Virus record (IMG/VR): IMGVR_UViG_3300020401_000035
Location: 1 to 37,857 of that record
Length of the DNA stretch: 37,857 bases
Origin: a virus
Strand: one strand, 5' to 3'
Both the position numbers and the translations under genes were made by a program. Under the pieces are notes generated by a model. It worked only from the letters and a program-made list of their open reading frames with translations. It did no database searches and was not told where the DNA came from. Of the stretch, positions 7,730 to 34,572 are shown in pieces. Each line of letters begins with the position of its first letter. The first letter of the stretch is position 1.

Positions 7730-7974
7730 TGACTGCAAACAATATTCATCCGATGACACAAGACTTGTCAGAACTGTCCACACCAGAAGTGGAAGCCAAA
7801 GTTAATGAATTAAGAAAAAAATATCTGTCTGCCAGAAATCCAGAGATCAAAAACCAAATTTTTTACTTCTTGACAGATTACCAAGAAGAACTTAAAATGA
7901 GGTATGCCAAAGAAAAACTTGAAATGGATAAACAGACAGGTAATGATCTTGACAATCTCATCAATATCGATTAA
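7729..7974 (+). CDS. Small acidic helical protein, function unknown
   Basis: An 81-residue protein that starts at ATG 7729, which overlaps the preceding TAA as TAATG. This coupling and the better N-terminus (MTANNIHPMTQ) favour it over an in-frame ATG 57 bases upstream. It is mostly charged alpha helix (VEAKVNELRKKYLSARNPE) without cysteines, membrane segments or known motifs. By position it could be a small virion assembly factor, but I do not recognise it. Its 3' end contains a strong sigma70-type promoter for the next gene. Confidence 0.65.
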   Translation: MTANNIHPMTQDLSELSTPEVEAKVNELRKKYLSARNPEIKNQIFYFLTDYQEELKMRYAKEKLEMDKQTGNDLDNLINID

Positions 7975-7977
7975 AAT
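7949..7977 (+). promoter_or_regulatory. Sigma70-type early promoter, leaderless start
   Basis: TTGACA (7949-7954) and TAAAAT (7972-7977) are separated by exactly 17 bases. The ATG of the DnaE-like gene begins 7 bases after the -10 box, where transcription should start, so the mRNA is predicted to be leaderless. It lies inside the end of the upstream gene. A weak ATAAACA at 7976-7982 overlaps it. Confidence 0.7.
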
Positions 7978-7983
7978 AAACAT

Positions 7984-8505
7984 ATGAAAATTGATACATT
8001 AGGAGTACCTAAGTTCGGTGCGGATGATCTTATTGAGTTGATCTATCAAGGAAAAATAGATAAAATTAATCAAGTGTTGTGTGAAAAGAATACTGACACG
8101 GAACAATTTAATCAAAGTGTAAAAGATACAGAAATTGGTAGTATGCTAAAATTTTATCAAGCACTTGATGTTGACCAATCAGAATTTGATACTGCTTTAC
8201 AATCTGAATGGTTTATGCCAAACAGTTACAAAAACATAAACATTGAACAGTACATTGATTCTATATGTCCTAACAATGACACAGCAAAAGCAAGAGTCAA
8301 AGAAGAACTAGATGCTTTTAAATCTAAAAACATGATGACAGTTTTGAAGTTTATGCACTTTTTGGTATCCCATATGAGAGAAAATGATTTGGTATGGGGT
8401 GTAGGCAGAGGCAGTTCGGTGGCTAGTTACGTGTTGTTCCTTTTAGGAGTACACAAAGTAGACTCGATTCAATATGGACTAGACTGGCGAGAGTTCATCA
8501 GATAA
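7984..8505 (+). CDS. DNA polymerase III alpha (DnaE)-palm-like fragment protein
   Basis: The 173-residue protein ends with a clear match to the first part of the bacterial DnaE palm domain: GVGRGSSVASYVLFLLGV (139-156) corresponds to the GPGRGSxxxSxxxYxLxI motif, and YGLDWREF (164-171) to YxLLFERF. The preceding region (WFMPNSYKN...RVKEELDAFKSKNMM) fits the segment between the PHP and palm domains. It stops just before where DnaE carries the catalytic Asp-x-Asp, and there is no PHP domain, so it cannot be a polymerase by itself. The upstream promoter suggests early expression. It could bind replication proteins or a phosphate/nucleotide ligand; the function is unknown. Confidence 0.7.
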   Translation: MKIDTLGVPKFGADDLIELIYQGKIDKINQVLCEKNTDTEQFNQSVKDTEIGSMLKFYQALDVDQSEFDTALQSEWFMPNSYKNINIEQYIDSICPNNDTAKARVKEELDAFKSKNMMTVLKFMHFLVSHMRENDLVWGVGRGSSVASYVLFLLGVHKVDSIQYGLDWREFIR

Positions 8506-9251: not shown

Positions 9252-9280
9252 TTGACAAACTAAACAATTTCCTTTATACT
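9252..9280 (+). promoter_or_regulatory. Sigma70-type early promoter, leaderless start
   Basis: TTGACA (9252-9257) and TATACT (9275-9280) are separated by 17 bases. The next ATG (9287) is 7 bases after the -10 box and no ribosome site precedes it, so a leaderless mRNA is predicted. It fills the gap after the cochaperonin gene. Confidence 0.8.
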
Positions 9281-9286
9281 TAAAGA

Positions 9287-9454
9287 ATGAAACTTCCACA
9301 ATCGTATTCTGGTATAAACACAACAGGACTGACTGGTATTGTTTTAATGACTTTACACATTACTGGATATCTTGTGCATTGGGCATGGCCCATTTTGTAC
9401 ATAGTTCTGATACTATCAGGAATAGGACAAGAGTATAAAAAATATTATGATTAA
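9287..9454 (+). CDS. Small membrane protein, 55 aa
   Basis: A short open frame directly downstream of a sigma70-type promoter encodes MKLPQSYSGINTTG, then two closely spaced hydrophobic stretches (about residues 15-30 and 34-46) split by HWAW, and a charged tail ending KKYYD. It is probably an inner-membrane hairpin or one long membrane helix. It overlaps the next gene by 8 bases, suggesting coupled translation. The promoter makes it an early gene; host membrane takeover or superinfection exclusion are possible but unsupported roles. Confidence 0.65.
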   Translation: MKLPQSYSGINTTGLTGIVLMTLHITGYLVHWAWPILYIVLILSGIGQEYKKYYD

Positions 9455-17244: not shown

Positions 17245-17274
17245 TTGACTTTTTGGTTAGAGTCATTATATAAT
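17245..17274 (+). promoter_or_regulatory. Sigma70-type early promoter, leaderless start
   Basis: TTGACT (17245-17250) and TATAAT (17269-17274) are 18 bases apart. The ATG of the DnaJ-like gene (17280) is 6 bases after the -10 box, with no ribosome site, so the transcript should start at or beside the ATG. It heads the dnaJ-def-clpA operon. Confidence 0.8.
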
Positions 17275-17279
17275 ATAGT

Positions 17280-18125
17280 ATGGATTATTATTCTATCCTC
17301 GGCGTCAATAGAAACGCATCAGAAACAGAACTGAAAAAGGCTTATAAGAAAAAAGCCATGCAGTATCACCCTGACAAAGGCGGAGATGCAAACAAGTTTC
17401 AGCAAATCAACGAGGCTTACGAAACACTAAAAGACCCACAAAAGAAAACTAACTATGATAGATTTGGCACAGCCAATCCATATGAAAGACAACCTGGTGG
17501 TAATCAGCAATATCAAGAATTTAACTTTGGAAATGTAAATGATATATTTGATTCATTTTTTGGAGGTGGTGGACCTTTTCACAGACAACGTGCACCTAAA
17601 AGAAATAGAAATATAAACATCAGAGCGAGTATAAGTTTACAAGATGTTATGCAAGGAAAAACTTTAATTGCAACTTATAGATTAAGCAATGGTAAAGAAC
17701 AAAGTGTTAACATAGATTTACCCAAAGGAGTAGAAGGCAATAGTACAATTAGATTTCAAGGACTAGGTGATAATCTTCACAAAGATGCTCCTAGAGGAGA
17801 TTTATTTTGTAAAGTTGTTATAGATAGACACCCTGAATGGGAAAGAAATGGAAGTGATTTACACAAAACAATAAGTGTAAATGCACTTGAAATGATATTA
17901 GGAACTAAGGTCCCAATACAAACTTTAGATGGAAAAAGTTTAAACATTAATATTCCTAAAGGTTGTAAAACTGGAACAGTGATGAGCATTCACGAACATG
18001 GATTGCCAAGATTATATAATAGAGGTAGAGGAAATATTTACATCACTGTAAATGCACATATACCTGATATTCATGATAAAGAAGTATTAAATTTAATAAG
18101 GAAAATTAAAGATGCAACTAATTAA
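17280..18125 (+). CDS. DnaJ/CbpA-like J-domain cochaperone
   Basis: Residues 1-62 form a J domain with the essential HPD at 30-32 (MQYHPDKGG). A Gly/Phe-rich linker follows (about 70-100), then two peptide-binding C-terminal domains (about 108-180 and 186-262). The Cys-rich zinc region of true DnaJ is missing, so it is the CbpA type (type II). J proteins stimulate ATP hydrolysis by DnaK and deliver clients, so it probably recruits host DnaK. It overlaps the deformylase gene by 14 bases and shares an early promoter. Confidence 0.9.
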   Translation: MDYYSILGVNRNASETELKKAYKKKAMQYHPDKGGDANKFQQINEAYETLKDPQKKTNYDRFGTANPYERQPGGNQQYQEFNFGNVNDIFDSFFGGGGPFHRQRAPKRNRNINIRASISLQDVMQGKTLIATYRLSNGKEQSVNIDLPKGVEGNSTIRFQGLGDNLHKDAPRGDLFCKVVIDRHPEWERNGSDLHKTISVNALEMILGTKVPIQTLDGKSLNINIPKGCKTGTVMSIHEHGLPRLYNRGRGNIYITVNAHIPDIHDKEVLNLIRKIKDATN

Positions 18126-18606
18126 AGACCCAAATGATTTTTTAAAACGCAAAGTAGATGCATTTAATTTTGAAAAAGAAGATGCTCCAAAATTGGCACA
18201 AGAAATGATATCGGATATGATTAAGTTTAACGGTGTTGGGTTAGCCGCAAACCAAGTAGAGTATAATGGCAGAATATTTGTTATGAAGCCAGAATCTGGT
18301 AAACCTTTTGCAGTAATTAATCCTAGTATAGAAAAGGTAAGTGCAACAACCAAATTAGGCGTTGAAGGATGTTTAAGTTTCCCAAATCTATTTTTGTATG
18401 TGCAGAGACCAGACAAAATTGAAGTGAATTTTCTTGACATTGAAGGAAAAAATGTTACAATGTTACTAGAAGATTTTGAAGCCAGAATCTTCTTACATGA
18501 ATTTGATCATTTGGACGGAATTACATTCGACACTAGAGTGAGCAAATTAAAATTACAACTCGCAAGAGAAAAACAAAGGAAGTTAGAAAAAATTAAAAAT
18601 GGTTGA
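18112..18606 (+). CDS. def: Peptide deformylase
   Basis: All three deformylase motifs are present: GVGLAANQ (41-48), EGCLSFP (85-91, with the metal-binding Cys) and HEFDH (129-133). The enzyme removes the formyl group from the N-terminal Met of new proteins. At 164 residues it is of normal length. It sits between DnaJ- and ClpA-like genes and overlaps both, so the three form one operon acting on new or misfolded proteins early in infection. Phage deformylases are known in marine cyanophages. Confidence 0.93.
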   Translation: MQLIKDPNDFLKRKVDAFNFEKEDAPKLAQEMISDMIKFNGVGLAANQVEYNGRIFVMKPESGKPFAVINPSIEKVSATTKLGVEGCLSFPNLFLYVQRPDKIEVNFLDIEGKNVTMLLEDFEARIFLHEFDHLDGITFDTRVSKLKLQLAREKQRKLEKIKNG

Positions 18607-20851
18607 ACCAAACGACGATTTACAGACAGTATTCGATAAAGCAGTATCTGTTGCTAAAAAACTGAAACATGAATACGTAACACTTGAACATTTGTTATAT
18701 GCAATGTTGTGTACAGATAAGTTTCAGAACATGATTACAGGTTTTGGTTCCAATTACGAAGAAATTAAAGACAATTTAGAAACATATTTGAAAACAAAAT
18801 TAAATGATATCAAAGTAAAAGAAGGCACTTTAAAATACAAACCAAAGAAAACAACCTCTGTTGAACGTGTGCTTAATAGAGCATTTACACAGGTGTTGTT
18901 TAGTGGTAGAAGTCAAATTGATATCGCTGACGTGTTTTTAAGTATAATGAGTGAAAAGAAAAGTTGGGCATATTATTTTGTTTACAAAGCAGAAATAGAA
19001 AAAGATAAATTTCAGGAATATTTGCACAGCGAAATAAGTGAGATACAAGACGAAGACGTTGATCCAACAACTGCCAATAGAGCATTAAGTCAGTTTACAA
19101 CAAATCTAAACACCCAAGCAAAGAAACAAAAAATAGATCCTGTTATAGGTAGAGAATTTGAATTAGATTCTATTGCACTGTCTTTGGGCAGAAGAATGAA
19201 AAACAACGTAATACTTGTTGGTGAACCAGGTGTGGGTAAAACTGCAATAGCAGAAGGTTTAGCATTAAACATACACAACAAAACTTGTCCAGAATTTTTA
19301 AAGCCTTATGAAGTATACAATTTAGATATTGGTGCAATGTTGGCTGGTTCTAAATACAGAGGTGATTTTGAGGAAAGATTTAAAACAGTTTTAAGTGCCT
19401 TAAAGAAAAAAGGCAAGACTATTGTGTTTATAGATGAAGCACATAATATATCTGGAGCAGGATCTACTGGCAGTGGTTCTAGTGCAAATGACCTAGCAAA
19501 TTTATTAAAACCAGTCCTATCTAAAGGAGAAGTTAAAGTTGTAGCATCAACCACTTGGGAAGAATATAGAAAATATTTTGAAAAAGACAGAGCATTGATG
19601 CGTAGATTCCAACGTGTTACTGTGGACGAACCTAGTTCAGCAGTAACAAAAGATATTATGCATGGTATAAAAAAATACTATGAAGAGTTTCATAAAACAC
19701 AAATATCAGATGAGGCTATTCAAGCATCAATCGATTTGAGTGTAAAATATCAAACAGATAAGAAATTGCCAGATAAAGCAATTGATTTAATAGATTTGGC
19801 GTGTAGTAGATTAAATTTAAGAGAAGACAATACAGACAGAAATATTAACAAAGAAAGTATTGAACTTGAACTTTCTAACATGACTAAAATGCCATTAGAA
19901 ACTGTACAACAAAAAGAAAGTTCTAATGTTGCAAACTTGATGCAAAATATGAAAAAAGTTGTTTATGGACAAGATGATGCCATTGAACAAATTGTAGATA
20001 AAATTATGATTGCTCAGGCTGGACTAAAACGTGATAACAAACCGATTGGCTCTTTTGTGTTAATGGGTCCAACTGGATGTGGTAAAACAGAAACAGCAAA
20101 ACAATTATCTAATCAATTAGGAGTAAAATTAGTGAGATTTGATATGTCAGAATATCAAGAAAAACATTCGGTATCTAAATTAATTGGATCTCCTCCAGGT
20201 TATGTAGGCTTTGAAGAAAACACAGGACAATTAATTACAAAGATTCAAGAAAATCCAAACTGTGTATTACTATTAGATGAAATAGAAAAAGCACACCCAG
20301 ATGTTTCGCAGATTCTTTTACAAATAATGGATGAAGGAAGTATTGCTGGTAACAATGGTAAAACAGCAGACTGTAAAAATATCACACTGTTTTTAACTAC
20401 AAACCTTGGTGCTGATAAACTAGAGAAAAATGTAATGGGCTTCAATGCAAGTACAACAATAGAGTATGATGATAAAGATATGAAAACATACTTTGCGCCT
20501 GAATTTAGAAACAGGTTAGATGGCGTGATTGTGTTTAAAAAACTAGACAAAAATGTGCTGATTAAGATTGTTGGCAAGTTTATGTTAGAATTGAAAAATA
20601 CTCTGAAAGAGAAAAAAGTTGAAGTAACTCTGTCAGATGAAGCAATAGATTATCTAGTAGATAAAGGCTATGACAGTAAGATGGGTGCAAGACCTATGCA
20701 AAGGGTGATAGATAATGACATCAAGAAACCAATGGCAAAATTGTTGCTATTTGGTGAACTAAAGAATGGTGGACAAGTTACTATTGCTGTCAAAGACAAG
20801 AAACTGCATTTAATACCGCAAAAAGCAGTCAAATTACTGCAACAGAGTTAA
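18599..20851 (+). CDS. ClpA-like double AAA+ unfoldase
   Basis: The 750-residue protein matches ClpA layout: an N-domain (about 1-145), D1 with Walker A GEPGVGKT (208-215) and Walker B VFIDEAH (276-282), and D2 with GPTGCGKT (490-497) and LLLDEIE (557-563). Pore loops KYRG (252-255) and GSPPGYVG (530-537) are intact. There is no ClpB-type middle coiled coil. VMGFN near 612-616 lies where ClpA has its IGL/IGF loop for docking on ClpP, so it may use the host ClpP. No phage ClpP is seen. It would unfold chosen host or phage proteins early in infection. Confidence 0.92.
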   Translation: MVEPNDDLQTVFDKAVSVAKKLKHEYVTLEHLLYAMLCTDKFQNMITGFGSNYEEIKDNLETYLKTKLNDIKVKEGTLKYKPKKTTSVERVLNRAFTQVLFSGRSQIDIADVFLSIMSEKKSWAYYFVYKAEIEKDKFQEYLHSEISEIQDEDVDPTTANRALSQFTTNLNTQAKKQKIDPVIGREFELDSIALSLGRRMKNNVILVGEPGVGKTAIAEGLALNIHNKTCPEFLKPYEVYNLDIGAMLAGSKYRGDFEERFKTVLSALKKKGKTIVFIDEAHNISGAGSTGSGSSANDLANLLKPVLSKGEVKVVASTTWEEYRKYFEKDRALMRRFQRVTVDEPSSAVTKDIMHGIKKYYEEFHKTQISDEAIQASIDLSVKYQTDKKLPDKAIDLIDLACSRLNLREDNTDRNINKESIELELSNMTKMPLETVQQKESSNVANLMQNMKKVVYGQDDAIEQIVDKIMIAQAGLKRDNKPIGSFVLMGPTGCGKTETAKQLSNQLGVKLVRFDMSEYQEKHSVSKLIGSPPGYVGFEENTGQLITKIQENPNCVLLLDEIEKAHPDVSQILLQIMDEGSIAGNNGKTADCKNITLFLTTNLGADKLEKNVMGFNASTTIEYDDKDMKTYFAPEFRNRLDGVIVFKKLDKNVLIKIVGKFMLELKNTLKEKKVEVTLSDEAIDYLVDKGYDSKMGARPMQRVIDNDIKKPMAKLLLFGELKNGGQVTIAVKDKKLHLIPQKAVKLLQQS

Positions 20852-20868
20852 TCTCGTTCTTTTAAAAC

Positions 20869-20879
20869 CTAAATAAATA
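20869..20879 (+). promoter_or_regulatory. T4-type late promoter, overlapping CTAAATA and ATAAATA
   Basis: Two overlapping late-type cores (CTAAATA at 20869 and ATAAATA at 20873) lie after the ClpA-like gene; the next ATG is 5 bases past the second. They mark the switch from an early operon to late genes. Confidence 0.65.
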
Positions 20880-20884
20880 AGCAT

Positions 20885-21238
20885 ATGCCAGCAAGTAGCG
20901 AAACAATATTATCAGCAACAACACATCCAGGTGATAGCACATCTGAGACTGTTGTAGGTAGCAAATTTAAAGGTGATGGATACTACGGTAGATCCGATGG
21001 ATTACATACGGTTCAAATTAACGTTTCTGGAGTATCTGGAACAATTAAATTGCAAGCCACACTAGCAGTTGAACCTGTTGAGGCTGATTACTTTGATATT
21101 GAAAACGTAGAATATAACAGTGGCACTGATGGCAGTACAGGTTCTTTTATGTACAACTTTACAGGTAATTTTGTATGGATTAGAGCTCATGTAGTGTACA
21201 CAGACGGAACAATTAACAGTATAAAGTTGAATCATTAA
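20885..21238 (+). CDS. Putative small virion protein, 117 aa
   Basis: The protein is rich in Gly, Ser, Thr and Val with a predicted beta-sandwich pattern (LHTVQINVSGVSGTIKLQAT and FVWIRAHVVYTDGT). It lacks cysteines and catalytic motifs. The composition is that of phage head-decoration or tail proteins, and the late promoter supports expression with virion genes. I do not recognise the exact family. Confidence 0.5.
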   Translation: MPASSETILSATTHPGDSTSETVVGSKFKGDGYYGRSDGLHTVQINVSGVSGTIKLQATLAVEPVEADYFDIENVEYNSGTDGSTGSFMYNFTGNFVWIRAHVVYTDGTINSIKLNH

Positions 21239-21239
21239 T

Positions 21240-21827
21240 ATGCATCATTATTTTAACATAGTAAAAGACACACCATTTACAGAAGACGAAATTAACACAG
21301 CAATCAATTTAAGCACAATTGGATTGTTAGAAGCCGAAACCAAGTATGTAACTTTCGAAGATGATAAAGGTAATAATGTACTTGCAGTTGAATTACACAG
21401 ACAACTTGATCAATTAGAATCAGATGATTTAGCAGAAGATTTAGAACTATTGTACAACAAATTAGGCACAAAAGATTTTGTTATAGAAGTATCAGATAAC
21501 GATCCTGATGAAGAAACATATGAAGGTGACGACTTTTTTGAAGCCTACGGTGATATGTGGTACAATGAAGATGAAAATTTAGATGAAGCAGAGTACAGAG
21601 GTAGAAAAGTAAAATTAGGCAAACCAATGCAAGGTGATGTCAAAAAGTTTAAAGTTTATGTAAGAGATCCAAAAACAAAAAATATTAAAAAAGTAAACTT
21701 TGGTGATCCTAATATGAGAATTAAAAAATCTAATCCTGCAAGACGTAGAAGTTTCAGAGCAAGACACAACTGTTCAAATCCAGGACCTAGAACAAAAGCA
21801 AGATATTGGTCTTGCAGAAAGTGGTAA
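21240..21827 (+). CDS. Acidic protein with basic, Cys-containing C-terminal module
   Basis: The first 130 residues are strongly acidic (DNDPDEETYEGDDFFEAYGD). The last 60 switch to basic: VYVRDPKTKNIKKVNFGDP, then SNPARRRSFRARHNC, CSNPGP and YWSCRKW. This C-terminal module, with two cysteines about 16 apart, is one I recall at the end of several unrelated marine phage proteins. It resembles the CSNPKGFSQKAHC end of the protein at 27701. It probably binds nucleic acid or a capsid partner. It is the first gene of a run of such proteins; its N-terminus lacks the capsid-targeting-like motif. Confidence 0.6.
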   Translation: MHHYFNIVKDTPFTEDEINTAINLSTIGLLEAETKYVTFEDDKGNNVLAVELHRQLDQLESDDLAEDLELLYNKLGTKDFVIEVSDNDPDEETYEGDDFFEAYGDMWYNEDENLDEAEYRGRKVKLGKPMQGDVKKFKVYVRDPKTKNIKKVNFGDPNMRIKKSNPARRRSFRARHNCSNPGPRTKARYWSCRKW

Positions 21828-21828
21828 T

Positions 21829-22128
21829 ATGAGAGCAGAAGATTTCGTTCATCCTAAAAGCAAAATAGATTATGATATAATTGATGATATTCATGCATTC
21901 ATGACCAACGATAATGATTTTTATAGACGCAATTATTTTCCAGTAATAGATGAATTTAAGACAAAAGGCAAAACTGATAGAATGAGACCAATGATTGAAT
22001 TGGCTTGTAATGAATATTTTAAAAAATTTAACGTACCTGCTCGTCAAGAAAATGCAATCAACGATGATGATAAACAAGTGTTGATGGACAAAATAATTGA
22101 AACAGAAAAAGAAAATAAGGATGAGTAA
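21829..22128 (+). CDS. Small helical protein with N-terminal MRAEDF motif
   Basis: A 99-residue protein that starts MRAEDFVHPKSK, close to the MRAKDFITEG and MRAFEFITEG starts of later genes, although the Glu expected at a cleavage point is absent. The rest is mostly helical and charged, with RMRPMIELACNEYFKKF in the middle and an acidic end. Function is unknown. It overlaps the nucleotidyltransferase gene as TAATG. Confidence 0.65.
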   Translation: MRAEDFVHPKSKIDYDIIDDIHAFMTNDNDFYRRNYFPVIDEFKTKGKTDRMRPMIELACNEYFKKFNVPARQENAINDDDKQVLMDKIIETEKENKDE

Positions 22129-22730
22129 TGCGTATATTAGAAATAGTAGAAGCACCAGATAAAACTGCTGTATTTGCCTTTGGGCGAATGAACCCTATCA
22201 CAATAGGACATCAAAAAATTATAGACACAATAAAACAACAAAATGGTGATCCATTTTTATTTCTAACTCACACACAAAATAATCAAAAAGACCCGCTTAA
22301 TTTTGCACAAAAGAAAATGTATGCTACAAACTTCTTTCAAGGAGTTACAGTAGGCGATGATAATGTGCGAACGATCATTGATGCAATGAAGAAATTAGAA
22401 TCTATGGGTTACAACAAAATAATATATGTTGCAGGCAGTGATAGAGTTGAATCATTCAATGACTTATTGAACAAATACAATGGTGCAGATTACAATTTTG
22501 ATTCTATTGATATTGTAAGTGCTGGAGAAAGAGATCCTGAAGTAGATGGTGCAAGAGGCATGAGTGCTTCTAAAATGCGTGATTTTGCGGCACGTGGTGA
22601 CTTACAAACTTTTATTAACAATGTGCCAGGTGAAAAGAAATTAGCAACAAAAATGTACATGGATGTACGTAAAGCAATGGGCTATGAAGCAGTGCAAAAG
22701 AAACCCCAACCCATGGGCCAACCAGCATAA
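22128..22730 (+). CDS. Nucleotidyltransferase-like (HIGH-superfamily) protein with capsid-targeting-like N-terminus
   Basis: FAFGRMNPITIGHQKII (about 16-32) is the nucleotide-binding TxGH signature of the cytidylyltransferase/NMNAT superfamily. YVAGSDRVESF and SASKMRDFAARGD provide the later binding and (S/T)xxxxR motifs. Members transfer a nucleotide to nicotinamide mononucleotide, phosphopantetheine or lipid head groups; the substrate here cannot be read from sequence. Eight residues, MRILEIVE, precede the core and resemble the motif shared by neighbouring genes, so the enzyme may be packaged into the capsid. It ends in a Pro/Gln-rich tail. Confidence 0.8.
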   Translation: MRILEIVEAPDKTAVFAFGRMNPITIGHQKIIDTIKQQNGDPFLFLTHTQNNQKDPLNFAQKKMYATNFFQGVTVGDDNVRTIIDAMKKLESMGYNKIIYVAGSDRVESFNDLLNKYNGADYNFDSIDIVSAGERDPEVDGARGMSASKMRDFAARGDLQTFINNVPGEKKLATKMYMDVRKAMGYEAVQKKPQPMGQPA

Positions 22731-22733
22731 ATA
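22727..22733 (+). promoter_or_regulatory. T4-type late promoter core (ATAAATA)
   Basis: It overlaps the TAA stop of the nucleotidyltransferase gene and the next ATG is only 3 bases later, the shortest spacing seen. Confidence 0.6.
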
Positions 22734-22736
22734 CGT

Positions 22737-22943
22737 ATGGATATAGGCACACTTAAAAAATTAGCAGGCATTGACTCTCAAACTTCCACGGTGGAAGATC
22801 AAAATGTGAGTCATACTGCCACTGCTTTAAAGCAGAAAGAACGTAAGTTAGGCTTAAAACCAGGTGATCCAGATTGGTTTAAACTGTGGTTTAGTAGACC
22901 ATATTTGCAAGGATCATTAGGATTTAGAGGACGTAAAAAATGA
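22737..22943 (+). CDS. Small basic protein, 68 aa
   Basis: It begins MDIGTLKKLAGID, then a polar linker and a basic end (FSRPYLQGSLGFRGRKK). There are no cysteines or membrane segments. The basic end resembles the ends of other proteins in this cluster, and the late promoter lies just upstream. It shares ATGA with the next gene. The function is unknown; DNA or capsid binding is possible. Confidence 0.6.
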   Translation: MDIGTLKKLAGIDSQTSTVEDQNVSHTATALKQKERKLGLKPGDPDWFKLWFSRPYLQGSLGFRGRKK

Positions 22944-24106
22944 AGTTAAGAGATTTATTTGTTGAATTTAAGGTTAATAATGAACCAAGAGACGAAGTTC
23001 ATTACCGCCAATTAAAAAAAGATTTACAAAAAATTCAAAACGATCCTAAACAAAGAGACCCTGAAACTAAACGTGCAGTAATGAAACGTAAAGCAGAATT
23101 AGATGCTTGGGCACATTCAAAAGGTATTAAATCAGAAAATTCAATTGAAGAAGGTCATTATCCGCATATTAAAAGTTTTGATAAACTTTATGGAATAAAT
23201 GACGTACAAAAATACAAAGACATGGCGGATGATGCACAGTCAATGGACATGGAAGAATTTGTTGACACTTACAATAATGTAATTGACATGGCTGGAGATT
23301 TTTGGGAAGATCATCAAAAAAATGTTGCAGAAGAACCAGTTTCAATGCAAGACTTGAAAAGAGTAGGCGCAGATGTAAAGAAAGTTTATGTACACAAAGA
23401 TGGTAAAACAATTTTAGTACCTGTCGAAAAAAAAGATGAATATCTAGCAAAAGGCTACAAACTTTCTTCTTTAAGAGCAGAAGATCAAGTTGACGAAAGA
23501 ATGCCAGCAAGTATTATCAAACACAAAGAAAAACTTGCTAATATGTCAGACAAAGATTTAGCAGACAGATTTAAAGATTTTGATGACACAAGATTGCGTC
23601 AAATGGCATGGAGACATGGCTATGGCAAAATGAGTGACTACTACGTAAACAGAAAAAACAAAGGTATGTCACAAGACACAAATGAAGGCGAAATGCGTAT
23701 GGACAAATCAGCATTTGTTCAAATGTTAGCAAACAAAATTCAAGAACCTCAAAAAGGACATGGAAGACCAGAATACGATAATAGACTGTTGGCTAAGATG
23801 TATAAGTTGGTAACAGGCAAAGATGTAGACTTTGAAGGTGATAAGTTCACAATAAAAATGAACACTCCAACAACTGAAGACGCAGATATCGATGCACAAT
23901 TTAAATCAGATGTGTTACAATTTTTAAACAGCAAAGTTGTACAAATTGAAAAACAAATAGAATTACAACCGGCAAACACAGCGGAAGAAAAAGAAAACAA
24001 AGAATTTGCATTAAAATTATTTGATTTTGTACAAGCAAAGTTGGAACAAAAAGATGATGCAGATAACACATTGACTGTGCCTAAGTCAATGATTAAGAAA
24101 AAGTAA
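22940..24106 (+). CDS. Large charged protein of the internal-protein-like cluster, 388 aa
   Basis: The start MKLRDLFVEFK fits the cluster motif with a possible cut after Glu9. The body is highly charged, with helical and possibly coiled regions: an N-terminal KxxLQKIQNDPKQRDPETKR, a middle VYVHKDGKTILVPVEKKDEYLAKGY and a C-terminal helix bundle rich in Lys/Glu. No catalytic motif, cysteine or membrane segment is seen. It overlaps neighbours on both sides (ATGA, TAATG). It looks like a fusion of several short modules. A capsid-interior or scaffold role is inference. Confidence 0.65.
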   Translation: MKLRDLFVEFKVNNEPRDEVHYRQLKKDLQKIQNDPKQRDPETKRAVMKRKAELDAWAHSKGIKSENSIEEGHYPHIKSFDKLYGINDVQKYKDMADDAQSMDMEEFVDTYNNVIDMAGDFWEDHQKNVAEEPVSMQDLKRVGADVKKVYVHKDGKTILVPVEKKDEYLAKGYKLSSLRAEDQVDERMPASIIKHKEKLANMSDKDLADRFKDFDDTRLRQMAWRHGYGKMSDYYVNRKNKGMSQDTNEGEMRMDKSAFVQMLANKIQEPQKGHGRPEYDNRLLAKMYKLVTGKDVDFEGDKFTIKMNTPTTEDADIDAQFKSDVLQFLNSKVVQIEKQIELQPANTAEEKENKEFALKLFDFVQAKLEQKDDADNTLTVPKSMIKKK

Positions 24107-24531
24107 TGAGAGCAAAAGACTTTATTACAGAAGGCGCTTCAATGAATGCCTACCACAAACATCCAAAAGATGATAAACTTTGGACCTTTCCTGATTCATA
24201 TGCAGATGATCCAAGTGTTGAAAGTCCTTACATGAGCAACGCAAGTATGCGAATGTTTTTAGATGGTTTAGGCTACGATCCAAATTTTGAAGAAGCATCA
24301 CCAGTACCAGCAAAAGAATTTATTGCTAGAACAACACAATGGTTACAAAAAAATATTAACAAACCTTCTAAAGAAATACCAACCACAGTAGACAAAAATC
24401 CTGGCGGGCCAACAATGATTTCTGGTGGAAAACCAGAAGGCTGGATGAACACATCAGTCAAAGTCCATAACGAATTGGCTCGTAACATTCTTGCAAAATA
24501 TCCTGAAGTAACACATTTTGGATTTGGTTAA
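24106..24531 (+). CDS. Protein with capsid-targeting-like start MRAKDFITEG, 141 aa
   Basis: The N-terminus is very close in pattern to the T4 internal-protein leader MKTYQEFIAEA, with a predicted cut after ITE. The rest (MNAYHKHPKDDKLWTFPDSY, SNASMRMFLDGLGYDPNFEE, PKEFIARTTQWLQKN-like helices) is soluble and not recognised. No cysteines are present. It overlaps the preceding gene as TAATG and is followed 2 bases later by the HAD gene. Confidence 0.65.
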   Translation: MRAKDFITEGASMNAYHKHPKDDKLWTFPDSYADDPSVESPYMSNASMRMFLDGLGYDPNFEEASPVPAKEFIARTTQWLQKNINKPSKEIPTTVDKNPGGPTMISGGKPEGWMNTSVKVHNELARNILAKYPEVTHFGFG

Positions 24532-24533
24532 TC

Positions 24534-25247
24534 ATGCGTTTTTTGGAAATTGGTAACACAGTTGACAAAAACAACACAAGGTTGTATAATGCTGATATGA
24601 CCAAAATAAATCCACGGACAGAAATCTATGTAGACATGGATGGCGTACTTGTGGACTTCTTCAAAGCATGGGCAGATGTAATGGGAGTAAAAACTTTTAG
24701 AGATATAAAAAATATTGACGCAGGTTTAGAAAAAATTAAACAAACAAAAGACTTTTGGATCAATTTAGAAAAGACACCCAACGCAGATAATTTATTAAAC
24801 ATCATAAAAGACGTAAAAGGTTCATACAGCATTTTAAGTTCACCTATGCCTGGCGATCCAAGAGTGGAACCAAGCAAACAAGCCTGGGTTAAGAAAAATT
24901 TAGTTGCTTTTGCACCAAAGCAAGTAATCATCACATATGACAAAGCCAAGTATGCCAAACAAGCAGATGGCACACCAAATATTTTAATTGACGATTATGG
25001 CACAAACATTGACAAATGGGAGTCAGCAGGAGGCGTTGGATTCAAACACAAGGATCACAAATTCGAAAGAACTGCACAGAATCTTAAACAAAATTTTTCT
25101 GCTTATAGAGAAGAAGCGGCAGGTGTTGGAATAATCACAAAACAAAATACAACTGTTGATGTAAAGCCTGGAGAAACAAAAAGACAAGCAAAAAAAATGG
25201 GTTTTAAATTAGACAAAAAAGGTTATCCACCTTCATTGAGAAAATGA
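24534..25247 (+). CDS. HAD-superfamily phosphatase (5'-nucleotidase-like), two possible starts
   Basis: The HAD motif I YVDMDGVLVDFF, with both Asp residues, lies at residues 32-43 of the long form; LSSPMPGDP provides motif II, KAKYAKQ a motif III Lys, and ILIDDYGTNI motif IV. It resembles deoxyribonucleotidase-type HAD enzymes. The last 32 residues (DVKPGETKRQAKKMGFKLD, then KKGYPPSL) are a basic tail appended to other marine phage proteins. The long form starts MRFLEIGN, like the cluster motif. A consensus promoter lies within its first codons, and ATG 24597, seven bases after the -10 box, would give a 216-residue form without the N-terminal tag. Confidence 0.8.
   Translation: MRFLEIGNTVDKNNTRLYNADMTKINPRTEIYVDMDGVLVDFFKAWADVMGVKTFRDIKNIDAGLEKIKQTKDFWINLEKTPNADNLLNIIKDVKGSYSILSSPMPGDPRVEPSKQAWVKKNLVAFAPKQVIITYDKAKYAKQADGTPNILIDDYGTNIDKWESAGGVGFKHKDHKFERTAQNLKQNFSAYREEAAGVGIITKQNTTVDVKPGETKRQAKKMGFKLDKKGYPPSLRK
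24562..24590 (+). promoter_or_regulatory. Consensus sigma70 promoter inside the HAD gene, leaderless internal start
   Basis: TTGACA (24562-24567), 17 bases, TATAAT (24585-24590) is a perfect consensus. The in-frame ATG at 24597 starts 7 bases after the -10 box, just before the HAD catalytic motif, so transcription and translation would begin at the same base. Confidence 0.8.
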
Positions 25248-25444
25248 ACATAGTAGACATAGTAAAAGAAAATTTTGCAGATGGCAAAGTAAAAGGTAAA
25301 TCTAGACCAGGCAGAGTAAAACGTGCTGGTGCTAGTTGCAAAGGTTCTGTATCTAGTTTACGTAAAAAAGCCAAAAACGCATCAGGAGAACGTGCTAAAA
25401 TGTATCACTGGTGTGCAAACATGAAATCTGGGCGTAAAAAATAG
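25244..25444 (+). CDS. Small basic protein with capsid-targeting-like start and two-Cys tail
   Basis: The 66-residue protein begins MNIVDIVKENF (possible cut after Glu9) and continues as a very basic chain: GKSRPGRVKRAGASCKGSV, then a helix and MYHWCANMKSGRKK. Cys36 and Cys57 frame the basic region. The composition suggests DNA binding, as in the small internal proteins of T4 heads. It overlaps the HAD gene by ATGA. Confidence 0.7.
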   Translation: MNIVDIVKENFADGKVKGKSRPGRVKRAGASCKGSVSSLRKKAKNASGERAKMYHWCANMKSGRKK

Positions 25445-25605
25445 TGAAGAGAAAACTCACTAGATGTTTTCAAAGAGCCAGACGCGAAGCAATAAGAGAT
25501 CCAAGAAACAACAAAGAATACTACACTAGAATTGTAGCAGATCGACTAGAAAAAATTATAAAAAGACGCTACGGTTTAGATTACTATCTAGAACAAACAA
25601 ATTAG
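25444..25605 (+). CDS. Small basic protein, 53 aa, GTG start
   Basis: The frame begins with GTG overlapping the upstream TAG and encodes a strongly basic helical peptide: KRKLTRCFQRARREAIRDPR, then EYYTRIVADRLEKIIKRRYG and a short neutral tail. There is no capsid-targeting-like start. The close coupling and regular codon use support it as a gene, but the GTG start lowers certainty. DNA binding is likely from its charge. Confidence 0.55.
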   Translation: MKRKLTRCFQRARREAIRDPRNNKEYYTRIVADRLEKIIKRRYGLDYYLEQTN

Positions 25606-25610
25606 TACAG

Positions 25611-25617
25611 ATAAGTA
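25611..25617 (+). promoter_or_regulatory. Variant late promoter core (ATAAGTA)
   Basis: One base differs from ATAAATA. It lies in the short gap before ATG 25623 with the same 5-base spacing seen at 3348, 25795 and 26061. Confidence 0.4.
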
Positions 25618-25622
25618 ACTGT

Positions 25623-25802
25623 ATGCGATTTAAAGAGTTCAGCAAAATTAAGAAACGTTATGATCATCACTATGGCTATGATCCTGAATTATTAGTGTAT
25701 AAACACAAGATAGGCCCCATATACGGGAAGAAAAACCTGAAAGTACCACACGCAAAATATTCAATCAGCAAACGTGCAAGTAAACTAATGAAAAATAAAT
25801 AG
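25623..25802 (+). CDS. Small basic protein, 59 aa
   Basis: It starts MRFKEFSKIKKRYDHHYGYD, partly like the cluster motif but with Ser-Lys where the Glu would be. The remainder is Lys/Tyr/His-rich (VYKHKIGPIYGKKNLK) and ends RASKLMKNK. No cysteine is present. It ends inside the next late promoter. Function is unknown, with nucleic-acid binding suggested by charge. Confidence 0.6.
   Translation: MRFKEFSKIKKRYDHHYGYDPELLVYKHKIGPIYGKKNLKVPHAKYSISKRASKLMKNK
25795..25801 (+). promoter_or_regulatory. T4-type late promoter core (ATAAATA)
   Basis: It overlaps the TAG stop of the 59-aa gene; ATG 25807 follows after 5 bases. Confidence 0.65.
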
Positions 25803-25806
25803 TAGT

Positions 25807-26064
25807 ATGAAGATCACTGAAATAGTAACAATTAATTTAAAAGAGTACGCAACAGCAGGTGCCACAAGTGCTGGTAGTATTGCTACTGTGGTATCTCCAC
25901 ACATTGCAATAGGGCCAGATAGATTCAAAAAATCATACACAGGTACACCAGGTAAGTCAGGCACTAAAGCACCAAACCTGCCCAAAATTAAAAAACAAAC
26001 ACCCAAAGATAATGCATTGGACATGAAAGGTACAAGCATATTTGGCGGGCCATTAAAAAGGTAA
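25807..26064 (+). CDS. Small Gly/Ser/Thr-rich protein, 85 aa
   Basis: It begins MKITEIVTINLKEYATAGAT, a longer variant of the cluster start with Glu13 as a possible cut point. The middle is small-residue-rich (SAGSIATVVSPHIAIGPDRF) and the end is basic and Pro/Lys-rich (KAPNLPKIKKQTPKD, then IFGGPLKR). It seems largely unstructured. It has its own late promoter. The function is unknown. Confidence 0.6.
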   Translation: MKITEIVTINLKEYATAGATSAGSIATVVSPHIAIGPDRFKKSYTGTPGKSGTKAPNLPKIKKQTPKDNALDMKGTSIFGGPLKR

Positions 26065-26067
26065 ATA
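26061..26067 (+). promoter_or_regulatory. Late promoter core (GTAAATA)
   Basis: It overlaps the TAA stop of the 85-aa gene and has the usual 5-base gap to ATG 26073. The first base differs from the common ATAAATA. Confidence 0.5.
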
Positions 26068-26072
26068 CACAT

Positions 26073-26843
26073 ATGAAACACGATGAATTAAAAGAAGGTT
26101 TAGCAGATTTGGCTCAAAGAGTAGAGCAAGACCATGAAGTGCAAATGGCAAAATCTGATCTATACAAATCAGCAAAATATTCTATCAAACTACACGAACT
26201 TTTAAAAAATGTTTCAGAAGAAAAAGGTTTAGAAGGTTGGGTAGCGGCAAAGATCACAAAAGCAAGTGACTATTTGAGTTCTGTATTTCATTACATGGAA
26301 TACGAAATGATGGATGAAACTAAAGAAACAGTTGCAGAATCAATGGCTTGTGACTGTGATAAAAATTGTGGATGTAATGGAAATTGCACTCCAAATTGTA
26401 ACTGTCATCCAGGCTGTAATACTCCAGCAAAAGAAGATTATAAAGCATCACTTCAAAATAAATTAAGCGAACAATTAAAAAAAAAGATTGATACAGACAC
26501 AGACGAATCTGGAATAATGTACCGAGCCGGTGTTAAAAAATACGGCAAAGACGGAATGCAAAAGATTCAAAGTGCCGCTGGAAAAGGTGCCAGTGCAGAA
26601 GAGATTGGCAAAATTAAAGACAAGCATAACAAAAAGAAAAAAGAATCTTTCACATCTTTAGAAGAATCAATTGGTAAAGAAATCACAGAAGAAGAATTCG
26701 AAAAACTAGCAGAAAAGAAAGATGCCTGCTATCACAAAGTAAAAGCAAGATACAAAGTTTGGCCTTCGGCTTACGCCTCTGGTGCTCTAGTTCAGTGTCG
26801 TAAAAAAGGCGCGGCTAATTGGGGCAACAGCAAGAAGAAGTAA
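26073..26843 (+). CDS. Multi-module protein with metallothionein-like Cys cluster
   Basis: The start MKHDELKEGL weakly fits the cluster motif. Residues 30-80 are helical (KYSIKLHELLKN and AAKITKASDYLSSVFHYMEY). Residues 93-115 hold eight cysteines (93, 95, 99, 101, 105, 109, 111, 115) and His112 in CxC and CxxxC spacings, as in metal-binding metallothionein-like peptides. A Lys-rich linker follows, then a C-terminal module CYHKVKARYKVWPSAYASGA with a second Cys and WGNSKKK, which I recall at the end of many phage proteins. The roles are unknown; metal and nucleic-acid binding are the best guesses. Confidence 0.7.
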   Translation: MKHDELKEGLADLAQRVEQDHEVQMAKSDLYKSAKYSIKLHELLKNVSEEKGLEGWVAAKITKASDYLSSVFHYMEYEMMDETKETVAESMACDCDKNCGCNGNCTPNCNCHPGCNTPAKEDYKASLQNKLSEQLKKKIDTDTDESGIMYRAGVKKYGKDGMQKIQSAAGKGASAEEIGKIKDKHNKKKKESFTSLEESIGKEITEEEFEKLAEKKDACYHKVKARYKVWPSAYASGALVQCRKKGAANWGNSKKK

Positions 26844-27247
26844 TGAAACTTAACGACATAATAGAAGGAACACGTTGTTGGAAAGGCTACGAAAAGAAGG
26901 GCATGAAGACCATGTTCGGAAAACGTGTGCCTAATTGTGTAAAAAGAGAACACGTAGACTTCTGTGTAAATTGTTACAATCTTGTACTACACGAATCATT
27001 AGACGAAAATCTTAAAAAATGGTTTAAACAAAAATGGGTACGCATGGGTCCTGGCGGTAAAATTAGAGGATCATGCGGAGGTAAATCAGACGGTGAAGGT
27101 AAACCAAAGTGTTTACCGTTAGCAAAAGCAAGAGCCTTAGGAAAAAAAGGCAGGGCATCGGCGGCTAGAAGAAAAAGAAGAAAAGATCCAAATCCAGATA
27201 GACGTGGCAAAGCAATTAATGTTGCAACTAAAAAGAAGAAAAAATAA
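26843..27247 (+). CDS. Basic Cys-containing protein with capsid-targeting-like start
   Basis: ATG 26843 is chosen because it overlaps the previous TAA (TAATG) and gives MKLNDIIEGTR, matching the cluster motif with a cut predicted after IIE. Residues 12-50 hold CW...NCVKRE...FCVNCY, a possible metal site. The C-terminal part is highly basic: KWVRMGPGGKIRGSCGGKSD, KPKCLPLAKARALGKKGRAS, then RRKRRKDPNPDRRGKA and a Lys run. This tail is a module I recall in marine phage proteins (perhaps DUF5872-like; not certain). DNA binding within the capsid is inferred. Confidence 0.65.
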   Translation: MKLNDIIEGTRCWKGYEKKGMKTMFGKRVPNCVKREHVDFCVNCYNLVLHESLDENLKKWFKQKWVRMGPGGKIRGSCGGKSDGEGKPKCLPLAKARALGKKGRASAARRKRRKDPNPDRRGKAINVATKKKKK

Positions 27248-27567
27248 TGAGAGCGTTCGAATTTATTACCGAAGGCAAAAGAATACCACGTAAAAAAGGA
27301 CAGAAAAAAAATTCAAAAAAACACAGTGACCTATACACAGATGAAAATCCTAAAGGCACTATACATGGATTGGGGTTTAAAGATGAAGCCACAGCAAGAT
27401 CCAGTGTGTCTAAAATAAGAAAATCGGGTAGATCACACGCACACAAAATACAAGCGGCTGTTGCCATGGAGCAAAGAGCAAGAGCGGCAGGCAAATCAGG
27501 ACCAGCGGCTGTATATCGTAAATACATAAATTCAATGAAAAAGAAAACAAAAGCAAGGAAAAAATGA
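27247..27567 (+). CDS. Basic protein with capsid-targeting-like start MRAFEFITEG
   Basis: The first ten residues almost equal those of the gene at 24106 and imitate the T4 internal-protein leader, with a cut predicted after ITE. The body has KKHSDLYTDENPKGTIHGLG and SVSKIRKSGRSHAHKIQAA, then MEQRARAAGKSGPAAVYRKY and a Lys/Arg tail. This segment is a conserved small domain I have seen in other phage proteins without an assigned role. No cysteine is present. It starts as TAATG. Confidence 0.7.
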   Translation: MRAFEFITEGKRIPRKKGQKKNSKKHSDLYTDENPKGTIHGLGFKDEATARSSVSKIRKSGRSHAHKIQAAVAMEQRARAAGKSGPAAVYRKYINSMKKKTKARKK

Positions 27568-27701
27568 AAATAAGAAACAGACAAAGAAATGTACCATACA
27601 AACTGCCTTTAAAAGCAGATTCAACAAAAATTTACATGAAGTTTCAAAGCAAAGTAAACTGGTTTTCATGGACAATCAGAAATAAATTTAAAACAGTGTA
27701 A
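27564..27701 (+). CDS. Small basic protein, 45 aa
   Basis: The frame shares ATGA with the preceding gene and TAATG with the next, so it is placed as a real coupled gene. It encodes MKIRNRQRNVPYKLPLKAD, then KFQSKVNWFSWTIRNKFKTV: basic and aromatic, without cysteine. It lacks the Glu-ending leader motif. Unknown function. Confidence 0.5.
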   Translation: MKIRNRQRNVPYKLPLKADSTKIYMKFQSKVNWFSWTIRNKFKTV

Positions 27702-27829
27702 TGAAAGTTGCAGAGATAATATTAGAAAAGTGGTCTAAAAAATACAAGAAATCAATTAACTGTTCAAATCCCAAAGGTTTTTCACAAAAAGCACACTGCG
27801 CCGGCAGAAAAAAACGGAAGTCAAATTAA
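27701..27829 (+). CDS. Small basic two-Cys protein with capsid-targeting-like start
   Basis: The 42-residue product begins MKVAEIILEKW, fitting the cluster motif with a cut after ILE, and ends with INCSNPKGFSQKAHCAGRKK plus four residues. This CxNPKGFSQKAHCxGRKK unit is one I recall at the ends of other phage proteins, and it parallels CSNPGPRTKARYWSCRKW at the end of the 21240 protein. It looks like a leader plus one bare module, a minimal member of the cluster. It is the last gene of the run. Confidence 0.65.
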   Translation: MKVAEIILEKWSKKYKKSINCSNPKGFSQKAHCAGRKKRKSN

Positions 27830-27859
27830 CACTTTAATCACCACAAGATAAAATTTTAA

Positions 27860-27866
27860 ATAAATA
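27860..27866 (+). promoter_or_regulatory. T4-type late promoter core (ATAAATA)
   Basis: It lies in the 66-base gap before the gene at 27896 and leaves a leader with a very strong ribosome site (GGGGGAGG, 27881-27888). The rest of the gap shows no hairpin. Confidence 0.6.
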
Positions 27867-27895
27867 CAACATACTAACAAGGGGGAGGTTGTGTC

Positions 27896-28549
27896 TTGAA
27901 TTTTGTTGCTAATGTTCCATATCTTAAATGCTGGGTTCGTAAAGAATACTTGCACGACCTTGAAAGAGGCCACGGCGAATTTGTAGAAGCAGTAATCATT
28001 GCTGTAAAGTCCGTGCAAGGCAGAGCATTAATGTTTGAAGCATATCTTCCAGAGTATGGCGCTTGTTTCGATAAATTTCCACTATCAGCATTTGTTTGGA
28101 AAACAGACATCAAAGAAGAAGAACAATTACCTTTAGGCACATTAGAACTGTGGGACAGTTTCAGTTGCAACATCCAGGTATGGACAAAATCCATGCTAAA
28201 GAACTGTGACGTTGAGATAATGCTAAAAGGCGGTGGCAGAATGAAAGGCGAATACCTTTTTACAATTGATGCCTGTCACGGTGATCCTAACACAGTCAAC
28301 ACAGGAGTTTCAGAAGTACCAAGCGAACACAAACAACACAATTTTGGTAGATTAATAAACGGACAATACTTTGCACAACCAAACAACAGAATGCTTTGGT
28401 ATGAACAATCACTCACTCCATCAGAACTAAAAAGACCAGACTTCCAAGTCAGCACCAGAGAGTTCTTCTGCGAAAACGAAAGCAGTGTGACTTTTGGTGA
28501 TTCTAACGATTATTTTTACGAAGAAAAAGATAGCCCACTCAAAAAATAA
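27896..28549 (+). CDS. Conserved T4-like phage protein of unknown function, TTG start
   Basis: The start is TTG at 27896, seven bases after the strongest ribosome site in the window (GGGGGAGG); a GTG nearby is followed at once by a stop. The N-terminus FVANVPYLKCWVRKEYLHDL and the region LMFEAYLPEYGACFDKFPLS look strongly conserved from memory of marine T4-like phages. AQPNNRMLWYEQSLTPSEL marks the C-terminal third. No enzyme motif is evident. It has a late promoter but is followed by early genes. Confidence 0.75.
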   Translation: MNFVANVPYLKCWVRKEYLHDLERGHGEFVEAVIIAVKSVQGRALMFEAYLPEYGACFDKFPLSAFVWKTDIKEEEQLPLGTLELWDSFSCNIQVWTKSMLKNCDVEIMLKGGGRMKGEYLFTIDACHGDPNTVNTGVSEVPSEHKQHNFGRLINGQYFAQPNNRMLWYEQSLTPSELKRPDFQVSTREFFCENESSVTFGDSNDYFYEEKDSPLKK

Positions 28550-28552
28550 CCT

Positions 28553-28581
28553 TTGACTTCCTTAAAAAAATTAAGTATAAT
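28553..28581 (+). promoter_or_regulatory. Sigma70-type early promoter
   Basis: TTGACT (28553-28558), 17 bases, TATAAT (28576-28581). The predicted start near 28588 gives a 20-base leader with AGGAG (28597-28601) before ATG 28608, unlike the leaderless early promoters. Confidence 0.8.
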
Positions 28582-28607
28582 GTAGGCTTAATTAATAGGA
28601 GAATAAA

Positions 28608-28868
28608 ATGTCAGGTAGAACATACGGTCCAGAAGAACAAGCAAAATTAAAAAGAATTATAGATGAAGGCGCTAACGTGCTTTCTGAAGTTGAAGATTTG
28701 AATTCTGGCTTAAAAGATACTGTCAAAGCAGTTGCAGAAGAACTTGAAATAAAACCATCACTGATTAACAAAGCAATCAAAATCGCACACAAAGGCGAAT
28801 GGCACAAATACTCAGATGAATTCGATTCATTGGAAAACTTGATTATTGCAGTTGGTAAAGACAAATAG
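28608..28868 (+). CDS. Small helical protein, possible T4 DsbA-like dsDNA-binding protein
   Basis: The 86-residue product is charged and helical, with AVAEELEIKPSLINKAIKIA then HKGEWHKYSDEFDSLENLI. The C-terminal half resembles the layout of T4 DsbA (a short helix-turn-helix region, a His-Lys linker and an acidic end). DsbA binds double-stranded DNA near late promoters. The resemblance is by eye and weak, so this is a tentative call. It has a clear early promoter and ribosome site. Confidence 0.45.
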   Translation: MSGRTYGPEEQAKLKRIIDEGANVLSEVEDLNSGLKDTVKAVAEELEIKPSLINKAIKIAHKGEWHKYSDEFDSLENLIIAVGKDK

Positions 28869-28880
28869 AATATACAAATA

Positions 28881-29195
28881 ATGAAGTATATGGTTGACAT
28901 TGACAATACAATTTGTTACAATGAAAACAGTAACTATGAGGACAGTAAACCAGACCATGTTCGCATAGCAAAACTTAATGAACTGTTTGATAAAGGACAT
29001 GAAATACATTATTGGACAGCAAGAGGTGGAAATTCGGGAATAGACTGGACTGAACTAACACACAAACAATTAAAAGAATGGAATGCAAAGCATACGTCCA
29101 TTACAATGAAAAAGCCAGTTTATGATGTCTGGATAGATGATAGAGCCATTAATGCAGATGATTTTTTTGGTGCAAAAAACGAGGAGAAAAAATGA
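28881..29195 (+). CDS. Small HAD-superfamily phosphatase
   Basis: MVDIDNTIC near the start has the DxDxT nucleophile motif (Asp6, Asp8). YWTARGG gives motif II, KKPVYDVWIDDRAINADDFF carries the motif III Lys and motif IV Asp pair. At 104 residues it is a minimal HAD like the small capsule/sugar-phosphate phosphatase group, without a cap domain. The substrate cannot be told. It shares ATGA with the peroxiredoxin gene and is read from the promoter at 28553. Confidence 0.82.
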   Translation: MKYMVDIDNTICYNENSNYEDSKPDHVRIAKLNELFDKGHEIHYWTARGGNSGIDWTELTHKQLKEWNAKHTSITMKKPVYDVWIDDRAINADDFFGAKNEEKK

Positions 29196-29797
29196 AGAGA
29201 GATCTTAAAATTCCAAAGGTAACCTTTAGAGTTAGAATAGGTGATGAGGTGGAAACTGATGGTGGATGTGCAATTGGTGGACAATGGATTAACAAAACAA
29301 CGGACGACTTTTTCAAAGGTAAAAGAGTAGTGTTATTCAGTTTACCAGGAGCATTTACTCCAACTTGCTCGTCCCAACAACTACCAGGTTTTGAAAAAGA
29401 ATATGAAAATATAAAAAGCATGGGCATAGATGAAATATATTGTGTGTCAGTAAATGATTCGTTTGTGATGAACGCATGGGCAAATCATATGAAAATAGAA
29501 AAAGTAAAAATGATTCCAGATGGATCTGGTAACTTTACAAGATTTATGGGTATGCTAATTGGTAAAAACCATTTAGGATTCGGAAATAGAAGTTGGAGAT
29601 ATATGTGTGTCATTAACGACAACACAATAGAAAAATGGTGGCAAGAGCCTGGCATAAACAATGAAGGCACAGATGATGATCCATATATTGAATCAACTCC
29701 AGACAACATGGTAAAATACTTGAATAAAAATACAAATGCTGAAATGAACACAATGGTAGGCATTGATGTATCTGCAAATGACAACTACTCTGTCTAA
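29192..29797 (+). CDS. Peroxiredoxin (Prx5/AhpC-TSA type)
   Basis: FSLPGAFTPTCSSQQLPGFE (about 49-68) is the Prx5 active site with peroxidatic Cys59 and the conserved Pro and Thr. IYCVSVNDSFVMNAW and MIPDGSGNFTRFMGM match the later Prx5 blocks. It reduces hydrogen peroxide or organic peroxides using host thiols. The 201-residue length exceeds typical Prx5 (about 160) through an extra N-terminal part and an acidic C-terminal tail. It may protect replication from oxidative stress in sunlit water, which is inference. It lies in the early HAD-guaC operon. Confidence 0.88.
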   Translation: MKRDLKIPKVTFRVRIGDEVETDGGCAIGGQWINKTTDDFFKGKRVVLFSLPGAFTPTCSSQQLPGFEKEYENIKSMGIDEIYCVSVNDSFVMNAWANHMKIEKVKMIPDGSGNFTRFMGMLIGKNHLGFGNRSWRYMCVINDNTIEKWWQEPGINNEGTDDDPYIESTPDNMVKYLNKNTNAEMNTMVGIDVSANDNYSV

Positions 29798-34543: not shown

Positions 34544-34572
34544 TTGACATTTACCAAAAACCTAAATATAAT
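34544..34572 (+). promoter_or_regulatory. Sigma70-type early promoter overlapping a CTAAATA late core
   Basis: TTGACA (34544-34549), 17 bases, TATAAT (34567-34572). A CTAAATA at 34562-34568 overlaps the -10. GAGGAG (34581-34586) gives a good ribosome site before ATG 34593. The clamp may thus be made both early and late. Confidence 0.8.

Follow-up and report, generated by a model that had tools for sequence, protein, structure and literature searches.

A conserved, probable promoter within a HAD phosphatase gene of marine phages and its predicted leaderless mRNA

The virF gene of Shigella contains an internal promoter giving a leaderless mRNA, whose 5' end lies 1-2 nt from an in-frame ATG and from which the shortened protein VirF21 is made, as shown experimentally (PMC5101355). 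The phage gene described here resembles virF in its gene-internal promoter, leaderless mRNA and N-terminally shortened second protein, all of them predicted for the phage HAD, whereas virF is a regulator gene characterized by experiment; here the prediction concerns a marine phage enzyme domain whose element has been retained next to several different N-terminal partners. Leaderless mRNAs have also been named for lambda, P2 and Tn1721 (PMC5101355). The likeness to these systems lies in a transcript beginning at the AUG and in the mobile nature of the DNA. Their leaderless mRNAs arise from intergenic promoters of repressor-type genes, outside any longer frame of the same protein. The internal proteins of T4 are known for a capsid targeting sequence and cleavage by the prohead protease (PMC9026906); similar leaders of about 10 residues occur here at the N-terminus of otherwise unrelated small proteins, a resemblance that is no proof of packaging, while the internal promoter would, in contrast to T4, give a leader-free form. 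With the phage 5'(3')-deoxyribonucleotidases (NT5C HAD family, PHROG 2643) the protein shares fold and catalytic motifs, but its gene bears an extra leader and a C-terminal module, and the domain order differs between relatives. Finally, in the Methylophilales phage Melnitz, likewise a T4-like marine phage, the HAD homolog has TTGACT-N17-TATAAT 32 nt before its start, a promoter that, unlike the present one, lies outside the HAD gene; the Melnitz authors excluded non-intergenic promoters (PMC9004378). In the part of the literature that was searched, neither the HAD-internal element nor a class of leaderless promoters had been described before for these phages.

The DNA analysed, hereafter the window, is a viral stretch of 37,857 nucleotides (IMG/VR record IMGVR_UViG_3300020401_000035). 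Relatives were sorted into 29 groups of sequences with less than 90% HAD identity, and a second set comprised 13 groups below 80%. The features of the HAD gene are as follows.

24534..25247, + strand: full-length HAD gene, 237 aa, with a leader-like N-terminus, an NT5C-like HAD domain and a C-terminal 'VGIITKQNTTVDV' module (ORF, Pfam, PHROG, AlphaFold/Foldseek)
24534..24596, + strand: residues 1-21 (MRFLEIGNTVDKNNTRLYNAD), made up of the leader and the translated promoter and missing from the short form (pLDDT below 50 for residues 1-20)
24562-24567, + strand: -35 hexamer TTGACA, its TTG invariant in 29/29 groups via an invariant xTT codon
24571..24585, + strand: spacer dyad ACAAC-N5-GTTGT, with invariant xAC, AAC and xxG codons
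24585-24590, + strand: -10 hexamer TATAAT, TAT kept in 28/29 groups and AAT in 29/29
24597..25247, + strand: putative 216-aa short form with an intact HAD domain, encoded by a leaderless mRNA that would begin at the first base of ATG 24597 (invariant Met; fold begins at about residue 22)

As the initial annotation had stated, codons 10-19 of the HAD ORF hold a perfect TTGACA-N17-TATAAT, matching at 12/12 positions with a spacer of exactly 17, within the 16-18 nt that separate the hexamers of a sigma-70-type promoter. No other 12/12 site occurs between 20000 and 29000, and the whole window contains three perfect TTGACA-N15..19-TATAAT pairs against 0.16 expected, a number reached in 0/100 shuffles. 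A single site in one genome could be luck, and it takes conservation to decide the matter. Codon 22 (24597-24599) is the in-frame ATG; it follows the -10 by six bases (by 9 nt in a small number of relatives), so that its A occupies the canonical, inferred +1, the very base near which a transcript 5' end had been predicted; it also stands, as had been proposed, just ahead of the catalytic DxD, with D34-M-D36 following 12 residues on. Within reach of ATG 24597 there is no usable Shine-Dalgarno, the closest purine run (AAGG) ending 17 nt upstream, and on this ground initiation at an internal Shine-Dalgarno of the long mRNA was rejected. The out-of-frame ATG in TATAATG was also rejected, as it is missing from two relatives (L004 and L231).

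Profile and structure searches identified the product as a 5'(3')-deoxyribonucleotidase of the NT5C type. PHROG 2643 (5'-3' deoxyribonucleotidase) matched residues 26-181 with an E value of 8e-25, Pfam NT5C matched residues 31-166 marginally (25.1 bits against a cut-off of 24.8), the closest solved structures by Foldseek were 5'(3')-deoxyribonucleotidases, and the DxDG and DD motifs are present, the catalytic-motif residues D34, D36, D153 and D154 being invariant. In the AlphaFold model confidence was high between about residues 22 and 189 and poor in the C-terminal module, and residues 1-20 were disordered; since the fold begins at about residue 22, a start at M22 drops only the disordered leader. 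The module 'VGIITKQNTTVDV..KKMGFKLDKKGYPPSLRK' (window 25110-25247) is C-terminal to HAD in the window and N-terminal in many relatives (L005-L083), a change of position that, judged from the sequences, is attributable to domain shuffling among leader-bearing genes.

Dozens of contigs from marine phages carry the same DNA element at the junction before the HAD domain, whether the gene is a stand-alone leader-HAD or a nucleotidyltransferase-HAD fusion. In the closest homolog found (L004, 73% amino acid identity) the promoter is perfect and the ATG spacing exact, while the surrounding DNA has diverged. All other stand-alone HAD homologs found with an MR leader also keep a perfect TTGACA promoter; the scan that retrieved them demanded a perfect site with the spacer dyad, and codon-blind scans met no such gene lacking the promoter. 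Relaxing the -35 revealed the element between the nucleotidyltransferase domain and HAD in fusions, as well as in a third context, MKITEILSNQKISVDLYNKQLYNKHM. The -35 reads TTGACA only in MR-leader stand-alone genes and TTGACG, TTGATT, TTGCAG or similar elsewhere, with an invariant TTG; the -10 deviates in L270 (TACAAT) and L282 (TATACT). In the genome scan, the only contigs with the element and its HAD linker were metagenome-assembled ones, all with the same phage-type genes.

A conserved linker can, however, be conserved as a peptide, and the promoter might be a coding coincidence, spelled by chance by the residues N..LYN..M. The linker peptide is indeed conserved, and the HAD motif VDIDGTICYN produces chance perfect promoters in relatives. 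The codons, nevertheless, tell a different story. Those spelling TTG of the -35, ACAAC, GTTGTATAAT and ATG are invariant across the 29 groups, with the exception of one TAC, and the third positions of the xTT, xAC, AAC, xxG, TTG and AAT codons show zero variation, TAT varying once. Given the same amino acid, codon identity is 1.00 at xTT, xAC, AAC, xxG, TTG and AAT and 0.93-1.00 at TAT, against a mean synonymous codon identity of 0.50 (29 groups) or 0.47 (13 groups) at HAD columns of the same sequences, synonymous sites thus being frozen at the linker only; as the groups are phylogenetically related and not fully independent, these figures are a within-sequence contrast and carry no formal probability. 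In these genomes AAG accounts for 24% of Lys, AGG for 15% of Arg and TTG for 21% of Leu codons, yet G-TTG occurs in all groups.

Searches blind to codon choice gave the same result. About 20 loci with the linker were recovered using the HAD peptide only, every one reading xxG-TTG-TA, and a degenerate search of the viral collection for codon spellings of the linker peptide yielded 45 stretches, 45/45 of which were already among the exact-DNA matches. The invariant residues are exactly those encoded by the constrained DNA, and they lie in a segment, residues 1-20, predicted to be disordered. The VDIDxTICYN peptide served as control: it also yields perfect look-alike promoters, but their TAT/TAC and AAT/AAC codons vary, and two look-alike promoters within coding sequence were free of such codon constraint. 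Selection on the DNA independent of coding was thus found at the element, with the look-alikes as control, and a peptide-driven coincidence, largely refuted by the codon-blind searches and codon statistics, is very improbable. The codon of the N5 loop of the dyad and those on either side of the dyad vary freely, which disfavours simple recent shared ancestry; hitchhiking at a module junction was rejected as well, because the half-sites are fixed while loop and flanks vary.

Other promoter-like sites were noted in coding regions. In a second HAD-like gene (window 28894-28922) the VDIDNTICYN motif spells a promoter at 11/12 positions, perfect in several relatives, and its promoter likeness is apparently a coding coincidence. 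A further perfect TTGACA-N17-TATAAT, with an ATG immediately after it, occurs within a VDKxGxPxYNM module in distant relatives (L006 2393-2421, L015, L018 and L024); this site is perfect in only 5/9 groups.

The geometry of the element was also found at ordinary genes. On G003, a related phage contig of 148 kb, promoters matching TTGACn-N16..18-TAnnnT, with at least 5/6 matches in the -10, were counted by their distance to the next ATG: 13 cases lay at 5-7 nt, the others at 20-47 nt and none at 8-19, and the shuffled sequence had 0 promoters at 5-9 nt from an ATG. A Shine-Dalgarno is present in many of the 20-47 nt class, and loci L424-L431 of this contig are promoters of the leaderless format. 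The window shows the same two classes, with ATGs 17280, 7984, 9287 and 24597 at 5-6 nt and the others at 20-26. Besides the HAD element, the members of the short class are the following.

17245..17282, + strand: intergenic TTGACT-N18-TATAAT-N5-ATG of the DnaJ-like gene (ATG 17280), same geometry as the HAD element
7949..7986, + strand: TTGACA-N17-TAAAAT-N6-ATG of ORF 7984; a G003 gene with matching N-terminus has the same geometry and a different spacer
9252..9289, + strand: TTGACA-N17-TATACT-N6-ATG of the 55-aa ORF at 9287; a G003 gene with matching N-terminus has the same geometry and a different spacer

The pattern TTGAC-N18-TATANT-N4-7-ATG was present in 18/18 related records searched, against 0 in the reversed control. 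As this geometry is used at ordinary genes, the HAD-internal element was regarded as a further member of the same promoter class. A real promoter might instead serve the downstream genes (25244 onward), its ATG at +1 being incidental and no short HAD being made; in its favour, the ORFs downstream lie close together, and a search of 20000-29000 found no terminator-like site on the + strand. This reading is nonetheless quite unlikely, since the Met is invariant in all linker sequences among variable neighbours, 6 or 9 nt past the -10, corresponds in the alignment to the first residue of stand-alone HAD homologs, and has the ATG spacing of the separate leaderless class in these genomes.

The spacer dyad adds a further layer. 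Its half-sites are as constrained as the -10, and the other leaderless-format promoters of these genomes lack it; being conserved, not needed by a plain promoter and missing in sister promoters, the dyad ACAAC..GTTG points to selection beyond core promoter function, and it might conceivably be a dedicated regulator site. The conserved DNA, dyad plus GTTGTATAAT, could therefore be mainly a binding site or RNA element, such as an operator or an mRNA hairpin, with the promoter look secondary, and besides the invariance of the half-sites this would agree with the fusions that lose the -35 ACA yet retain the dyad and with stems of 7-9 bp in some alleles. Against it, a regulon is not visible, the dyad occurring once in 5/6 large related contigs and twice in the sixth, and a dyad regulon was rejected on this single-copy basis; L280 and L282 break the dyad and retain GTTGTAT; and TTG at the -35, 17-nt spacing, -10 and ATG at +1 jointly require a promoter. 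RNA folding was ordinary (z -0.35 for the window and -1.37 for the main fusion alleles), which makes an RNA role less likely, and a hairpin as main constraint was rejected for the weak folding of the window allele and the broken stem of L280. On balance a primary binding-site or RNA function is unlikely, though it is the least improbable of the three alternatives considered.

The surroundings of the gene bear on the long form.

24106..24531, + strand: upstream gene, stop 2 nt before ATG 24534, with a TAATG overlap in relatives
22128..22730, + strand: separate nucleotidyltransferase gene (PHROG 3041/395); in relatives such a domain is fused to HAD across the element
22727..22734, + strand: ATAAATAC, a T4-late-like site ahead of the operon holding the HAD gene (motif match before ATG)

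Because the upstream stop lies 2 nt before its ATG, the long form is probably translationally coupled. Five ATAAATAC sites lie within 20 nt of an ATG in the window (4067, 8502, 13060, 15280 and 22727) against 1.3 expected, and are candidate late promoters. An early short and a late long form, as originally suggested, would agree with the host-type promoter and the late-like ATAAATAC before the operon. The same annotation had called the N-terminus a packaging-like leader. Its leader part is plausible: a basic-acidic-hydrophobic start, M[KR]x1-3[DE][FILV], is found in 11/15 ORFs of the 21.8-27.8 kb cluster and in 2/38 other listed ORFs, so that unrelated neighbouring proteins share a short leader in the manner of T4-type capsid targeting sequences, and leader-directed packaging of the long form would fit this pattern. 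The leader is, however, a special case: many relatives carry the element between HAD and an entire nucleotidyltransferase domain, and its general function is therefore independent HAD expression and not leader removal.

Several sigma-70-type promoters (window 34544-34572; L118, L126, L103 and L383) contain CTAAATA, a lookalike of the T4-like late motif, in their spacer or -10 and are perhaps dual early/late promoters. The window also carries auxiliary genes (14756-15283, 17280-18606 and 27896-29797) for a 2OG-Fe(II) oxygenase, a DnaJ-like protein, a peptide deformylase, a ferredoxin-like protein and a peroxiredoxin.

Taken together, the element is most probably a gene-internal sigma-70-type promoter whose leaderless mRNA would encode HAD stripped of its N-terminal partner, while the operon mRNA would supply the full-length form. 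RNA polymerase would initiate at, or 1-2 bases from, the A of ATG 24597, and the mRNA would be translated straight from its 5' AUG into a 216-aa HAD phosphatase lacking residues 1-21; the 237-aa protein would be translated separately, on the operon mRNA and probably in coupling with the upstream gene. The proposal that an internal promoter lets one gene give two forms of the protein is thus strongly supported by the DNA-level conservation, the invariant Met and the leaderless promoter class of the clade, transcription and short-form translation being what we infer from them. In the ancestral state the promoter probably stood ahead of a stand-alone HAD gene, and fusion of an upstream frame, leader or nucleotidyltransferase, would have turned it into a translated linker, the peptide being conserved because its DNA is.

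More tentatively, this group of marine T4-like phages may use leaderless mRNA as a second standard format (TTGAC, -10, 5-7 nt, ATG). A promoter of this kind, equipped with an operator-like dyad of its own, may have persisted within fusion genes, so that a single phosphatase gene would give both a cytoplasmic enzyme and a form that bears the leader or the nucleotidyltransferase and is possibly delivered by the virion. Gene callers give the long form only, and promoter surveys that drop non-intergenic sites would miss the element (as in PMC9004378). On this reading a protein linker can be a translated promoter, preserved because of its DNA and not because of the residues it encodes, which shows a way for a phage to retain separate control of an enzyme after fusion to another domain and points to widespread leaderless expression in abundant marine phages.
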